Shown in pieces: positions 3,342-12,238 of a stretch of DNA of 64,000 nt. The notes under the pieces are model-generated. The model saw nothing but the letters and a program-made list of their open reading frames with translations, ran no database searches and was not told where the DNA came from. The translations under genes were made by a program, and so were the position numbers. Where the stretch lies: NCBI GenBank assembly GCA_025517565.1, contig JAOPKD010000002.1, forward strand, positions 248,001-312,000. Direction: 5' to 3'. Source of the stretch: Halapricum hydrolyticum (GTDB lineage: Archaea > Halobacteriota > Halobacteria > Halobacteriales > Haloarculaceae). Numbering within the stretch: the stretch's first letter is position 1; every line of letters begins with the position of its first letter.

Positions 3342-6300
3342 ATGCACATCAAAGAGCTCGTACTCGACGACTTCAAGAGCTTCGGTCGGAAGACGCGAAT
3401 CCCCTTCTACGAGGACTTCACCACGATCAGCGGCCCGAACGGCTCGGGCAAGTCTAACATCATCGACGCCGTGCTGTTCGCGCTCGGACTCGCCCGGACC
3501 TCGGGCATTCGCGCCGAGAAACTGACCGACCTCATCTACAATCCCGGCCACCAGGACGGCAGCGTCGAGACGGCTGGCGAACGCGAGGCCAGCGTCGAGG
3601 TCGTACTGGACAACGCCGACCGGACCCTGGAGCGGTCGCAGGTCGTCAACGCCGCCGGGACCGACAAGATCGGCGAGATCGACGAGATCACGATCAAACG
3701 CCGCGTCAAGGAAACCGACGACAACTACTACTCGTATTACTACATCAACGGTCGGTCGGTCAACCTCTCTGACATCCAGGACCTGCTCGCACAGGCGGGC
3801 GTCACGCCCGAGGGGTACAACGTCGTCATGCAGGGCGACGTGACCGAGATCATCAACATGACCCCACACGCCCGCCGCAAGATCATCGACGAGATTGCGG
3901 GCGTCGCGGAGTTCGACGCGAAAAAGGAGGACGCCTTCGAGGAACTGGAGGTCGTCGAGGACCGGATCGAGGAAGCCGACCTCCGGATCGAGGAGAAGCA
4001 GGACCGGCTTGACCAGCTCGAGGACGAACGGGAGACTGCGCTCGAATACCAGGAGTTGCGCGACCAGAAAGAAGAGTACGAAGGCTATCGGCGGGCGGCC
4101 GAACTGGAGGACAAGCGAGACGATCTCTCGGAGGTGCGCGATGAGATCGACGAGCGAGAGTCCGAACTCGCGGAGTTGCAGGCCGAACTCGACGAACGGG
4201 AGGGCAAGGTCGTCCGGCTGGAGGACGAACTGGCCGAACTCAACCGCGAGATCGAACGCAAGGGCGAAGACGAGCAACTCCAGCTCAAACGCGAGATCGA
4301 GGAGGTCAAAGGCGAGATCTCCCGGCTGGAGGACAAGATCGGCACTGCCGAGGAGAAACTGGAAGACGCCGAAAACGAGCGTCGGCAGGCGTTCGTCGAG
4401 ATCGATCGCAAGCAGGAGACGATCGACGATCTGGAGAGCGAGATCCGCGAGATCAAGGTCAACAAGTCCTCGCTGATGGCCGAGATCCAGGAAAAGGAGG
4501 CCGAACTGCAGTCGGTCGAAGCCGAGATCGAGGAGCTGGGCGAGGAGTTCGAGGACGTTCGCGAGGAGCTGGAGTCCCGGAAAGAGAGGCTCGCGGCGGC
4601 CGAATCCGAGCGCAACGACCTCCAGCACGAACAGGATCGGCTGCTCGACGAGGCGCGGCGACGCTCGAACGACCAGCGCGAGAAAGAACAGGCCATCGAG
4701 GAGGCCGAGGCCAGGATCCCCGAGATCGAGGCCGAACTCGAAGACCTGCGAGCGGAACTCGAGAAGGCCGAGAAGAACCGCGAGACGATCACCGAAGTCG
4801 TCGCCGATCTCACCCAGGAGAAGCGCGAACTGCAGTCGGACCTCGAATCCATCGAGGACGAGATCAGCGCCAAACAGCAGGAGTACGCCCAGCTGGAGGC
4901 GAAAGCCGACGACAGCGGTGACAGCTCCTACGGCCGGGCGGTGACGACGATCCTCAACGCCGACAAGGCGGGCGTCCACGGGACGGTCGCCCAGCTGGGC
5001 AGCGTCAGCGGAACGTACGCGACTGCCTGTGAAACAGCTGCAGGAGGACGGATGGCACACGTCGTGGTCGACGACGACGGCGTCGGCCAGCAATGCATCG
5101 AGTACCTCAAATCTCGCAACGCCGGGCGAGCTACCTTCCTGCCGATCACGAAGATGCAACACCGGTCGCTGCCCGGCAAGCCCGACCATCCGGGTGTGGT
5201 CGATTTCGCTTACAATCTCGTGGATTTCGACAGCGAGTACGCGCCGGTCTTCTCGTACGTGCTGGGCGATACGCTCGTCGTCGAGGACATGGAGACCGCC
5301 CGCGAGTTGATGGGCGAGTTCCGGCTGGTGACTCTGGAAGGCGATCTGGTCGAGAAGAGCGGTGCGATGACCGGCGGCTCCCAGAGCGGCTCTCGCTATT
5401 CGTTCGCGGGCAGCGAGGGGAAACTCGAACGGGTCGCCCAGCAGATCAACGATCTCGAAGACCAGCGCCAGGACGTCCGTAGCGACATCCGTGACGCTGA
5501 GGACCGTCTGGAAGACGCTCGCGACCGCAAGTCCGACGCCGCAGAGCAGGTCCGGGACATCGAGGCCGAGATCGAGAAGCGCGAGGACGAACGCGAGGGG
5601 GTCCGCGAGGAGATCGCCGACCTCGAAGACGACCTCGAAGCGATCGAGGCCGAACGCGAGGAGGTCTCCGAGCGGATGGACGAGATCGAGGCCGACATCG
5701 AAGCGAAGGAAGCCGAGATCGAGGAGATCGAGGCCGACATCGCGGAGCTCGAAGCGGAGATCGAGGACTCCGAGCTACCCGACCTCACCGACGAGGCAGA
5801 GGCGATTCAGGCGGAAATCGACGAGCTGCAGGATCAGGCCGACGAGCTGGACGCCGACCTGAACGAGAAGCAACTGGAGAAAGAGTACGCCGAGGACGCC
5901 ATCGAGGATCTCCACGAGAGAATCGAGACGGCACAGAACCGCAAGGCAGACCGCCAGAAGGAGATCGCCGAACTGGAGAGCAAGATCGAGGACCAGGAGG
6001 GGGTCCTGGCAAAAAAGGAGGCCGCGGTCGAGGACCTCGAAGACGAGCTGGCCGATCTCAAGGACGACCGCGAGGACCTCCGCGAGGATCTCCGGGCGGC
6101 CAAAGACGCGCGAGACGAGCAGAAAGAGGCCGTCGATAGAGTCCAGAGTGACCTCGACTCCCTGGAAGAGACGGCAGAGCGCCTCGACTGGGAGATCGAG
6201 GAGCTCGAAAGCGAGGTCGGCGACTACGACCCCGAGGAGATCCCGGATCACCACACGGTCGAGTCGGAGATCGGTCGTCTGGAGAGCGAGATGGAGGCGC

Positions 6301-6914
6301 TGGAACCGGTCAACATGCTCGCGATCGAGGAATACGATAACGTCCAGGCCGATCTCGACGAGCTGGAGGAGAAACGCGCCACGCTCCAGGAGGAGGCCGA
6401 CGGAATCCGCGAGCGGATCGCGACCTACGAGGCTCGCAAGAAGGAGACGTTCATGGAGGCGTTCGAGTCGATCAACGACCACTTCGAGTCGATCTTCGAG
6501 CGCCTCTCGAACGGAACGGGCCACCTCTATCTCGAAAACGAGGACGATCCCTTCGACGGCGGATTGACGATGAAGGCCCAGCCCGGCGACAAGCCGATCC
6601 AGCGGCTCAACGCCATGAGCGGCGGCGAGAAGTCCCTGACCGCACTCGCATTCATCTTCGCGATCCAGCGCCACAACCCGGCACCGTTCTACGCGCTCGA
6701 CGAGATCGACGCGTTCCTCGACGCGGCCAACGCCGATCGGGTCGGCGAGATGGTCGACGAGCTCGCCGGCGACGCTCAGTTCATCGTCGTCTCCCATCGC
6801 TCGGCGCTGCTCGAGCGGTCCGAGCGAGCGATCGGCGTCACGATGCAACAGGACAACGTCTCGGCGGTGACCGGGATCGACCTGAGTGCTGGAGGTGTTC
6901 CTGCTGATGACTAG
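3342..6914 (+). CDS. smc: Chromosome segregation protein SMC
   Basis: A 1190-aa SMC ATPase, full length for the family, which dimerises and organises or loops DNA together with the kleisin ScpA encoded next. Order of parts: N-terminal ATPase lobe with Walker A GPNGSGKSN near residue 31; a long coiled coil (about 165-515); a hinge around 525-670 (GRAVTTILNADKAGVHGTVA onward, with GGRMAHVVVDDD); a return coiled coil (about 680-1020); and the C-terminal lobe with the ABC signature LNAMSGGEKSL near 1090 and Walker B FYALDEIDAFLD near 1115. The coiled coils are very acidic, as expected in haloarchaea. The start at MHIKELVLDDFKSFG is the standard SMC N-terminus. Confidence 0.97.
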   Translation: MHIKELVLDDFKSFGRKTRIPFYEDFTTISGPNGSGKSNIIDAVLFALGLARTSGIRAEKLTDLIYNPGHQDGSVETAGEREASVEVVLDNADRTLERSQVVNAAGTDKIGEIDEITIKRRVKETDDNYYSYYYINGRSVNLSDIQDLLAQAGVTPEGYNVVMQGDVTEIINMTPHARRKIIDEIAGVAEFDAKKEDAFEELEVVEDRIEEADLRIEEKQDRLDQLEDERETALEYQELRDQKEEYEGYRRAAELEDKRDDLSEVRDEIDERESELAELQAELDEREGKVVRLEDELAELNREIERKGEDEQLQLKREIEEVKGEISRLEDKIGTAEEKLEDAENERRQAFVEIDRKQETIDDLESEIREIKVNKSSLMAEIQEKEAELQSVEAEIEELGEEFEDVREELESRKERLAAAESERNDLQHEQDRLLDEARRRSNDQREKEQAIEEAEARIPEIEAELEDLRAELEKAEKNRETITEVVADLTQEKRELQSDLESIEDEISAKQQEYAQLEAKADDSGDSSYGRAVTTILNADKAGVHGTVAQLGSVSGTYATACETAAGGRMAHVVVDDDGVGQQCIEYLKSRNAGRATFLPITKMQHRSLPGKPDHPGVVDFAYNLVDFDSEYAPVFSYVLGDTLVVEDMETARELMGEFRLVTLEGDLVEKSGAMTGGSQSGSRYSFAGSEGKLERVAQQINDLEDQRQDVRSDIRDAEDRLEDARDRKSDAAEQVRDIEAEIEKREDEREGVREEIADLEDDLEAIEAEREEVSERMDEIEADIEAKEAEIEEIEADIAELEAEIEDSELPDLTDEAEAIQAEIDELQDQADELDADLNEKQLEKEYAEDAIEDLHERIETAQNRKADRQKEIAELESKIEDQEGVLAKKEAAVEDLEDELADLKDDREDLREDLRAAKDARDEQKEAVDRVQSDLDSLEETAERLDWEIEELESEVGDYDPEEIPDHHTVESEIGRLESEMEALEPVNMLAIEEYDNVQADLDELEEKRATLQEEADGIRERIATYEARKKETFMEAFESINDHFESIFERLSNGTGHLYLENEDDPFDGGLTMKAQPGDKPIQRLNAMSGGEKSLTALAFIFAIQRHNPAPFYALDEIDAFLDAANADRVGEMVDELAGDAQFIVVSHRSALLERSERAIGVTMQQDNVSAVTGIDLSAGGVPADD

Positions 6915-7225
6915 GGAGACGCGAACGGCAGTGAGCGTCTCCGACAGTCGAGCGGGGAACGGAGTGACCCGCGAGACTAGCGAGGATCTGAACAAAGTGA
7001 AGATCCTCGAAAGGGCGAGCGGGGAGGAGTACCGACCCGCGAGCAGGGAGACGCGAACGGCAGTGAGCGTCTCCGACAATCGAGCGGGGAGAGCGAGACG
7101 CGACTGTCAGGAGCGTCTCGGACGCGAGCGGGGAGAGGATCGACCCGCGAGCGAAGCGACCCGCGATAGCGAGGATCTGAACAAAGTGAAGATCCTCGAA
7201 AAGAGCGGCGAATCGGAGGTGAACC
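6915..7225 (+). repeat. Array of related stem-loops in the smc-scpA gap
   Basis: This 311-bp gap holds at least six perfect hairpins at 6916-6941, 6952-6972, 6982-7008, 7048-7073, 7095-7119 and 7171-7197. Their stems differ (GAGACGC three times, GCGGG once, GAGGATCT twice) but five of the six share an 11-12 nt loop of form GAACnn(n)AGTGA. HP5 has the variant loop GACTGTCAGGA. A further loop-like motif, GAGCGAAGCGA, sits at 7149-7159 without a self-complementary flank. The stretch 6917-6958 is repeated almost exactly at 7049-7090. A reading frame stays open across it, but its content is only repeats and I do not treat it as a gene. The region must be transcribed if smc and scpA are one operon. 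Confidence 0.85.
7215..7222 (+). promoter_or_regulatory. Strong Shine-Dalgarno for scpA
   Basis: GGAGGTGA, a near-perfect complement of the 16S 3' end, lies three bases before the ATG at 7226. It fixes the scpA start and indicates translation from a leadered or polycistronic message. Confidence 0.7.
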
Positions 7226-8152
7226 ATGACTGACGACGAGATTCCACTGGACATCACAGGTCACGAGACGCGAGACGGGACCGACGACGGGACAAGCCTC
7301 CCCGACGGCGGCACGAGCGTCGTCGCGGGCGGCGAGTCGGGCAGTCCCGGCGGGCCGCCAGGGCCGGACGGAGCAAGCGAGAGCGACGACACCGAACCGG
7401 TCGAAGTGCTCGTCCAACTGGCCGAAGACGGCGAGATCGACCCCTGGGACATCGACGTCGTCCGGGTGACGGACAAGTTCCTCGACGCGCTCGAAGAGGC
7501 GGATCTGCGGACCTCCGGTCGGGCGCTGTTCTACGCGAGCGTGCTCGTGCGCATGAAAAGCGACGCCCTGCTGGAGGACGACGGTCCCGAGCAAGAGCCA
7601 GTTGCAGACGAACCGTGGGTCGAGCCGCTCGGCGAGGAGGAGTTAGGCGTCGATCCCTTCGACCAACTCGACGCCGAGATCGACCGCCGGCTCGAACGCA
7701 AGCGCGCCCGGGGCATGCCCCAGACGCTGGACGAACTCGTCCACGAACTGCGCGATGCCGAGCGGGACACCTGGTGGAAGGAATCCCGGGAGTACGACAC
7801 CAGCGACTCGCCCCAGGGCTACCAGCGCGGGACCCAGCAACTCGACTACCGGACTGCAGACGACCTTCGGATGGACGAGGAGCCGACCGCGGCCGAAGTG
7901 ACGGGAACGGCCCACGCCGAAAACATCGACGAGATCATCGATAGCGTCGAACGATCGCTCCGCGAGCAGTACGACGCCGGCCGGTCTGAAGTCCTCTATC
8001 GCGAGATCGGCGACGTCGGCGGCTCCCGGGTCGAGACGTTCCTCGGACTGCTCTTTCTGGCCCATCGGGGTGAAGTACGACTCTCACAGGACGACCTCTT
8101 CGGGGACCTCTGGATCCGGAATCCCGATGCTGCCGAGACCGCGTCGGACTGA
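7226..8152 (+). CDS. scpA: Segregation and condensation protein A (kleisin)
   Basis: A 308-aa kleisin that would bridge the SMC heads. After a low-complexity Gly/Asp/Ser-rich N-terminus (about 1-45), the ScpA core starts at EPVEVLVQLAEDGEIDPWDI, followed by VVRVTDKFLDAL and a Leu-rich SMC-neck-binding helix (RTSGRALFYASVLVRMKSDAL). The C-terminal winged-helix region near 240-300 includes TFLGLLFLAHRGEVRLSQD, which would contact the other SMC head. The start is fixed by the strong Shine-Dalgarno. No scpB gene follows; the next gene is the convergent coxC. The N-terminal extension is longer than in bacterial ScpA. Confidence 0.92.
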   Translation: MTDDEIPLDITGHETRDGTDDGTSLPDGGTSVVAGGESGSPGGPPGPDGASESDDTEPVEVLVQLAEDGEIDPWDIDVVRVTDKFLDALEEADLRTSGRALFYASVLVRMKSDALLEDDGPEQEPVADEPWVEPLGEEELGVDPFDQLDAEIDRRLERKRARGMPQTLDELVHELRDAERDTWWKESREYDTSDSPQGYQRGTQQLDYRTADDLRMDEEPTAAEVTGTAHAENIDEIIDSVERSLREQYDAGRSEVLYREIGDVGGSRVETFLGLLFLAHRGEVRLSQDDLFGDLWIRNPDAAETASD

Positions 8153-11124: not shown

Positions 11125-12180
11125 TTACCGGTTCACTGCGGCACGCAGATCGTCCGGCAGTCCACCCGGTAGTTCGTCCCGGTCGTGGGGCTTCTCGAAG
11201 TCCGAATCGGGCCCTTTCGGAACGATTCGCTTCGGGCTGACCTCGGGATGGGTCGTGTAGTAGTGCTCTTTGATGTGGTCCATATGTACCGTCTCGGCGA
11301 CGCCCGCTTCACTCCGCGTTCGCCCGTCCGGCGTCCCCTCGCTCCGCTCGGCGACGCCCGTCTGATAGACATCCCGAAGATACGGCCAGAGATTGTCGTA
11401 CTCGCGGATCAACCGGTGGTTACACATGAAGTGCGTGTGATAGACCTCGTCGAAACGAACGAGCGTCGTGAACATCGCGATGTCGGCTTCGGTCAGTCGG
11501 TCGCCGGCGAGATAGCGCTGGTCGGAAAGCACCGAATCCCAGTGGTCGAGCGCGTCGAACAACTCCTCGACAGCCCTGTCGTAGGCCGCCTGTGAATCGG
11601 CGAACCCGGTACGATAGACGCCGTTGTTGATCGGCTCGTAGATCGCCTCGATGATCCTATCGACCTCCTCGCGGTAGCCCTCGGGATAGAGGTCGACGTC
11701 GCGGTCGGCGACGTCGCCGAATTCGGTACCGAGCATCCGCATGATCTCCTTGGACTCGTTGTTGACGATCGTCTCTTCCTGTTTGTCCCAGAGCACGGGG
11801 ACCGTCACCCGGCCGGTCATCTCGGGGTCGGCCATCATGTAGATCTCTCGGAGGAAGTCCGCCCCGTTGACCGTGTCCGGCGTGCAGCCGTCTTTTTCGG
11901 GCGTGAACTGCCAGCCGTCCTCCCCGCGATAAGGGTCGACCACGTCGACGCTGATGGCGTCTTCGAGTCCGAGCAGTTTCCGCGCGATCAGCGTCCGGTG
12001 AGCCCACGGGCAGGCATACGAGACGTACAGGTGATACCGCCCGGCCTCCGGCTGGAAACGCGCGTCCGGGCTGTCCTCGATCCAGTCGCGAAACGCCGTC
12101 TCCTGGCGCTCGAACTCGCCTTGCTCGTTGGTCGTCCGGTAGACGTCAGTCCGCCACTCGCCGTCGACGAGCATGTTCAT
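11125..12180 (-). CDS. Glutathionyl-hydroquinone reductase-like GST (Ecm4/YqjG family)
   Basis: A 351-aa omega-like glutathione transferase. The thioredoxin-fold N-terminal half has the catalytic Cys motif [11 protein letters not shown] near residue 58; the helical C-terminal domain includes [19 protein letters not shown] near 240. Family members remove thiol adducts from quinones; haloarchaea use gamma-glutamylcysteine rather than glutathione, so the physiological thiol is inferred. The gene carries an 18-residue in-frame insertion ([18 protein letters not shown]) just before the conserved [16 protein letters not shown] stretch, flanked at DNA level by 14-bp direct repeats. The start is at MNMLVDGEW; Met and Val codons upstream lack similarity. 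Confidence 0.88.
11293..11360 (-). repeat. 54-bp in-frame insertion with flanking 14-bp direct repeats
   Basis: CTCGGCGACGCCCG occurs at 11293-11306 and again at 11347-11360, exactly 54 bp apart. The inserted DNA contains a hairpin (11330-11358) whose loop on the coding strand is GAGCGGAGCGA, plus a GAACGCGGAGTGA motif. These are the same loop motifs as in the smc-scpA hairpin array. Confidence 0.7.
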
Positions 12181-12238
12181 CGTGACCCTCGATACGGTTC
12201 CCATCCTGAAAAGCGGGCCAGTGACGCCGGTGTTACCG

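Follow-up and report, generated by a model that had tools for sequence, protein, structure and literature searches.

REPs are short palindromes that are dispersed at the 3' ends of genes and occur in tandem clusters, and kink-turn RNAs, which are bound by L7Ae, contain tandem G·A pairs within a helix. It has been proposed that REPs contribute to the stability of mRNA (PMC3733652). The palindromic elements of Rickettsia, of about 150 bp, occur as in-frame insertions in metabolic genes that are unrelated to each other (PMC10969869), and the PATEs of a haloarchaeon are palindromic repeats devoid of a transposase, with near-terminal palindromes related to IS605 ends (PMC3119063). Translational control in haloarchaea requires 3' UTRs (PMC2636863), and the mapping of 3' ends in Haloferax revealed T stretches, AGATC and hairpins upstream of 503 ends (PMC7237163). 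What such 3' UTRs contain is poorly known, and the module described here, which often lies right behind the stop codons of housekeeping genes, offers a concrete object that can be tested. No prior description of the module was found in the literature searched, mostly non-subscription papers, or in an Rfam scan of 6600-7400 up to E 5, where the array had no match and the two sub-threshold matches both fell in smc. The excerpts available of the Haloferax mapping hold no tandem-GA element (PMC7237163), and the module is not described in those of the processing-site work (PMC8303175), of the REP surveys (PMC12306157, PMC3733652) or of the account of Haloquadratum mobile repeats (PMC3119063).

The window, that is, the whole stretch analysed, comprises 64,000 nucleotides of Halapricum hydrolyticum. 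It contains an array of hairpins between smc and scpA, and this array consists of locally clustered copies of a twin-hairpin repeat that is dispersed across the Halobacteria. The relevant features are given below, where R1 denotes our covariance model.

3342..6914, plus strand: smc, the upstream gene, with a TAG stop at 6912-6914; Pfam SMC_N and SMC_hinge
6907..7233, plus strand: open frame of 108 codons across the array, no Pfam match
6915..6942, plus strand: hairpin 1, A type, GGAGACGC-GA-AC-GGCA-GT-GA-GCGTCTCC
6946..6978 (core 6952-6972), plus strand: hairpin 2, B type, with outer arm AGTC/GACT and two GA/GA steps, in full AGTC-GA-GCGGG-GA-AC-GGA-GT-GA-CCCGC-GA-GACT; R1 match 6916-6977
6981..7009, plus strand: hairpin 3, A type, CGAGGATCT-GA-AC-AAA-GT-GA-AGATCCTCG
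7019..7040, plus strand: hairpin 4, B type, GCGGG-GA-GG-AGTA-CC-GA-CCCGC, outside the motif of the earlier note; R1 match 6983-7045
7047..7074, plus strand: hairpin 5, A type, same sequence as hairpin 1
7094..7120, plus strand: hairpin 6, A type, CGAGACGC-GA-CT-GTC-AG-GA-GCGTCTCG; R1 match 7095-7153
7128..7148, plus strand: hairpin 7, B type, GCGGG-GA-GA-GGA-TC-GA-CCCGC, with an outer GA at 7149-7150
7170..7198, plus strand: hairpin 8, A type, same sequence as hairpin 3
7226..8152, plus strand: scpA, the downstream gene; Pfam SMC_ScpA
11296..11356, minus strand: degenerate module on the sense strand inside a GST-like gene (11125-12204); R1 E 0.24 and sequence

The eight hairpins in 6915-7198 share one form, in which a perfect stem of 5-9 bp encloses GA, two base pairs, a loop of 3-4 nt, two base pairs and GA, and the array is built as twin modules, A and B, in alternation. 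The earlier note had counted six stem-loops here and had described a loop GAACnn(n)AGTGA. Their place was correctly given, but eight hairpins obey the GA...GA rule; five of them are of the GAAC...GTGA type, while those at 7019-7040 (GAGGAGTACCGA), 7094-7120 (GACTGTCAGGA) and 7128-7148 (GAGAGGATCGA) break the motif and yet consist of GA, two paired bases, a loop, two paired bases and GA. Likewise, a motif at 7149-7159 (GAGCGAAGCGA) had been taken as stemless; it is real, but its first GA and its GCG are the outer GA and the outer arm of the hairpin at 7128-7148. The inner pairs (AC/GT five times, GG/CC, CT/AG and GA/TC) are formed in all eight hairpins. Compared with these 8 GA...GA hairpins in 286 nt, 2,000 dinucleotide shuffles averaged 0.0035 and contained at most 1.

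When folded as RNA, 6915-7200 reaches -153.2 kcal/mol, a value that none of 200 shuffles attained, with z of -11.5 for the sense RNA, as compared with -5.3 for the antisense RNA and -6.6 for the sense strand as DNA. In the predicted RNA fold, hairpins 2, 3, 4, 6, 7 and 8 are formed, and the identical hairpins 1 and 5 pair with each other. As the GA/GA steps can form stable pairs on one strand only and become UC/UC in the antisense, which folds more weakly, these values favor action in the transcript or in an exposed coding strand.

The same architecture recurs outside the array. A hairpins mostly start with CGAG or GGAG and have a variable arm, with AGCGAG or similar letters seen beside them. 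B hairpins have a stem near GCGGG/CCCGC, outside of which come a second GA/GA step and another paired arm. We anchored 130 loci on one exact B spelling, taken among the matches listed (30 and 100 further). GA was found on both outer sides of B at 112 of these loci, and the preceding A hairpin had a GA...GA loop at 61 and another loop at 65, while 4 had no A hairpin. GA...GA loops in A were found at 41/74 loci between genes behind a same-strand gene, as compared with 14/41 lying sense inside genes. With a looser B spelling, an upstream A stem of at least 7 pairs accompanied 169 of 290 distinct B hairpins versus 50 of 569 control positions. Where stems of at least 5 were combined with two inner pairs and a 2x2 mismatch, GA/GA was the commonest mismatch type, both in 464 kb of this genome (16/78; next type 5) and in 820 kb of the relatives' loci (41/161; next type 7), although under looser limits (stem of at least 4, loop 3-6) its lead was small (30 versus 25 for the next type). 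The pattern GAACN{1,4}AGTGA occurs 113 times in the genome, as compared with 39 for the reversed pattern.

In an alignment of 31 modules, both partners vary in 13 of 19 pairs, a number reached in 6 of 500 shuffles, and the covariation score is 0.607 versus 0.175; further pair types show no excess (32 versus 32.5). It should be considered that perfect A stems were the criterion for choosing these modules and that relatedness is still in the data, so that the unselected B-pair counts are the stronger evidence of covariation. There, the outer pairs 1, 2 and 3 are Watson-Crick in 185, 154 and 80 of 200, respectively, as compared with 170, 80 and 45 expected, and the inner pair is kept at 119 of the 130 loci (GC 70, AT 49). 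Covarying stems around a conserved core, as the earlier note had proposed, are thus supported by both data sets. The loop is, however, not read as a sequence: the constant features are the GA steps and the pairing alone, while the bases between them change as pairs (AC/GT, GC/GC, GG/CC, CT/AG, GA/TC), and this candidate was dropped. Since the inner pairs covary like the stems, the apparent conserved loop is a tandem GA/GA step inside the hairpin, followed by a short helix. A k-turn or k-loop was also dropped, as the inner and outer bases pair flush with GA/GA (as the count for the second outer pair shows, and as the stems of the array, which adjoin GA directly, also show) and as, unlike in kink-turns, there is no three-nucleotide bulge.

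The earlier note had raised the possibility of a dispersed hairpin family, to be sought with a covariance model in this genome and in relatives, as opposed to a local duplication that is absent elsewhere and whose pairing is lost in relatives. R1 gave 43 matches in this genome at E<=0.01 (150 of 4,267 candidates scored), five of them inside the array, and the related motif that had been seen in the GST gene proved to be a degenerate copy of the module. At E<=1e-4, with 46 candidates scored per genome, 97 of 116 Halobacteria genomes were positive, with up to 44 matches each, and 19 had no match. In a phylum sample, R1 matched 21 of 24 Halobacteria versus 5 of 124 others, the latter with one weak match each (E 2e-4 to 0.0085), where it should be noted that R1 E-values are rough. 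The exact B pattern was present in 96 of 194 Halobacteria genomes, and the reversed pattern was found 0 times among the matches listed. In the five other genomes of the genus, modules were gained, lost and exchanged, and most stems remained perfect, alongside some decayed units (e.g., in G004). The family is thus real and widespread, contrary to what a local duplication alone would give.

Like REPs and BIMEs, the module comes as many dispersed short palindromes, as the 43 matches attest, but here the arms vary by locus while the GA/GA steps are constant, A and B share one orientation that is set by transcription, many copies lie in reading frames and, within what was searched, the module is limited to Halobacteria. 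It resembles the Rickettsia elements in its in-frame copies (41 of 130 loci lie sense inside predicted genes, and scpA is read through hairpins), yet its units, which carry tandem GA/GA steps, measure about 60 nt, and 85 of the 130 anchored copies lie between predicted genes, as compared with 45 inside. It may be likened to the PATEs as a transposase-free palindromic repeat of haloarchaea.

Carriage by viruses was considered and rejected: in a scan limited to one B spelling, 19 viral contig stretches carried the exact B pattern, but R1 matched the B half only (at most 26.9 bits) or gave at most 16.2 bits over the full length. Among the literature matches looked at, the letters of the motif appeared in a cloning primer and in the terminal repeat of a Methanosarcina virus; the terminal inverted repeats printed for a Methanosarcina spherical virus contain the GAGCGAAGCGA core (PMC10342651).

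For the placement of the modules we relied on gene calls from an uncurated gene finder. The 130 loci comprised 41 sense and 4 antisense inside predicted genes, 38 sense and 7 antisense between co-directional genes, 34 in convergent gaps, 4 in divergent gaps and 2 at contig ends. The module was therefore sense in 79 of the 90 loci that are informative for orientation (p 9e-9 for 41/45 inside genes and 3e-6 for 38/45 between co-directional genes). Convergent gaps cannot show orientation, but in 26 of 34 the module's own upstream gene is the nearer one. In 21 of 70 cases, a stop codon precedes hairpin A at a distance of 0-4 nt, as compared with 2.4 expected under even placement. Stops within -3 to +4 nt of A were TAG in 17 cases, TAA in 5 and TGA in 2, whereas all predicted genes of the same loci used TGA 230, TAG 140 and TAA 80 times (p 2e-4 for the difference). 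Inside host frames, the B phases were 27, 9 and 5, a skew that is in keeping with tolerance for one peptide frame.

When 21 loci of this genome were inspected one by one, 15 lay between genes (14 behind a same-strand gene) and 6 inside genes (5 sense). The host or upstream genes included polyprenyl synthetase, the carbamoyl-phosphate synthase small chain, HMG-CoA synthase, a class II tRNA synthetase, GatB/GatE, chaperonin, a chorismate-binding enzyme and alcohol dehydrogenase. Hairpins also start 3 nt after the 3' ends of tRNA-Leu (C1:338173, minus) and tRNA-Thr (C1:456298), and one starts 54 nt after tRNA-His.

The position at gene 3' ends, together with the upstream hairpins that Haloferax ends can have (PMC7237163), would suit a hairpin-dependent transcription terminator. 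We consider this very improbable, as many copies lie inside genes or operons and as T runs downstream of the hairpins equal the A-run control (4/33 versus 4/33 in convergent and 6/37 versus 6/37 in co-directional gaps); an intrinsic terminator was dropped on the latter count. The location between smc and scpA, which the earlier note had stated correctly, is the sole point in favor of its suggestion of a chromosomal site for SMC or another chromosome protein. A special role at this junction is not supported, because these modules are also present within or behind many other genes, among them those for chaperonin, GatB/GatE and HMG-CoA synthase, and module orientation tracks transcription; of all the readings, a chromosomal binding site is the one we least expect.

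The junction is, nonetheless, a recurrent site of the module. In the best 80 of 292 scpA loci, R1 gave 54 matches at E<=0.01, of which 50, each in sense orientation, fell within the junction or the N-terminal part of scpA and were spread across genera over 33 of the 80 loci, with 47 devoid of a junction match; the four others lay elsewhere (L048, L038, L061 and L015). The codons of the scpA N terminus, near 5042-5108, form a second site, with eight R1 matches, all sense (L013, L018, L019, L020, L024, L027, L033 and L038). A rare exception is a junction hairpin in L018 (4845-4887) that is oriented opposite to smc and scpA. Both ends were found at 81 junctions. With a gap below 40 nt, the smc stop was TGA in 26, TAA in 2 and TAG in 0 of 28 junctions, whereas TAG was used in 30 of the 53 with a gap of at least 40 nt or a module (Fisher p 7e-8).

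At many filled loci in many genera, scpA starts at the old overlapping ATG and is translated through the hairpins. In this genus, the scpA start lies 3' of the array, and a separate frame, which in the window begins inside the smc stop (ATGACTAG) and ends inside the scpA start (ATGACTGA), crosses the array with no stop in all six genomes; the other two frames have 1 to 9 stops each, one being the smc stop by construction. This open frame, together with the many stops that have hairpin A 0-4 nt downstream, might be taken to mean that termination, reinitiation or the passage of ribosomes from one cistron to another, as from smc to scpA, is adjusted by hairpins that lie behind a stop or within a small coupled frame. 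We regard such a translation element as improbable: the 34 loci in convergent gaps have no downstream cistron to couple, some modules follow tRNAs, and the frame may stay open merely because scpA was once read through it.

Among imperfect pairs, no excess of G·T over A·C was seen (37 versus 34, p 0.81), the counts being 5 versus 7 in the A stem, 19 versus 12 in the B stem and 13 versus 15 in the inner pair. A strict count in clustered hairpins agrees (9 versus 9 and 6 versus 5), while a loose count (87 versus 88) is mostly noise. Since G·T does not exceed A·C, an ordinary RNA constraint is not seen, and the data suit a palindromic repeat that is born perfect. This raises the question of how the arms of a hairpin change together when G·U intermediates are not favored.

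The equality of the two mismatches thus counts in favor of a purely selfish palindromic DNA repeat, akin to REPs or the Rickettsia elements, that would be moved in trans, perhaps as single-stranded DNA, into stop codons and tolerant protein linkers. Here, the hairpin would serve movement only, and the sense bias would arise because copies enter the exposed coding strand or because the encoded peptide is tolerated. The dispersed matches, the tandem amplification and turnover within the genus, the in-frame copies and the association of the smc TAG stop with filled junctions are also as expected of such a repeat. It stands, however, with no demonstrated transposase, target duplication or strain-specific insertion. 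Peptide tolerance leaves the exact start at stop codons and the co-directional bias (38/45) unexplained, and the arms are diverse, with 79 distinct among 138 perfect ones, unlike what copying from one master would give. We thus hold a purely selfish repeat to be possible but doubtful.

The strand bias and the covariation point to a fold in mRNA. We prefer, with a probability of roughly 45%, a spreading REP-like palindromic repeat that likely acts in mRNA. Also in its favor are the excess of hairpin A starts right behind stop codons, the better fold of the sense RNA, the recurrence of sense modules at smc-scpA across genera and the two hairpins that begin 3 nt behind tRNAs. Under this mRNA reading, new copies of the module would arise by insertion, the region would be cotranscribed, and the twin hairpins, as predicted for the smc-scpA transcript, would fold there in vivo. 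As with a REP-like mRNA structure, the fold would then protect the upstream message or set it off, and may alter the decay or expression of the flanking cistrons. A role as a 3' UTR cannot apply as such to many copies, because these are translated in frame. Against the mRNA reading we count the G·T/A·C parity, the patchy occurrence, the 11 of 90 antisense loci and the in-frame copies.

A stronger form, which we consider unlikely, is a Halobacteria-wide class of cis-acting RNA, namely a GA/GA-stepped twin hairpin at stop codons that would be read by a putative protein recognizing the G·A-stepped rod. If true, haloarchaea would carry a general mRNA-end code that is able to spread to new genes.

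Some further observations concern the surroundings of the hairpins. At the smc-scpA junction, GGAGGTG...ATGACT flanks the array on both sides (6890-6914 and 7213-7231), a pattern suggestive of a duplication of the junction around the hairpins. At C1:28550-29000 (minus), an array of three hairpins lies between a gene that by eye is hemE-like and hemH, together with a repeated piece of the 3' end of the upstream gene. Behind tRNA-His (C1:304900-305300) and tRNA-Thr (C1:456200-456450), GA hairpins are surrounded by partial copies of the tRNA 3' end in inverted and direct orientation, as though this end were copied back.
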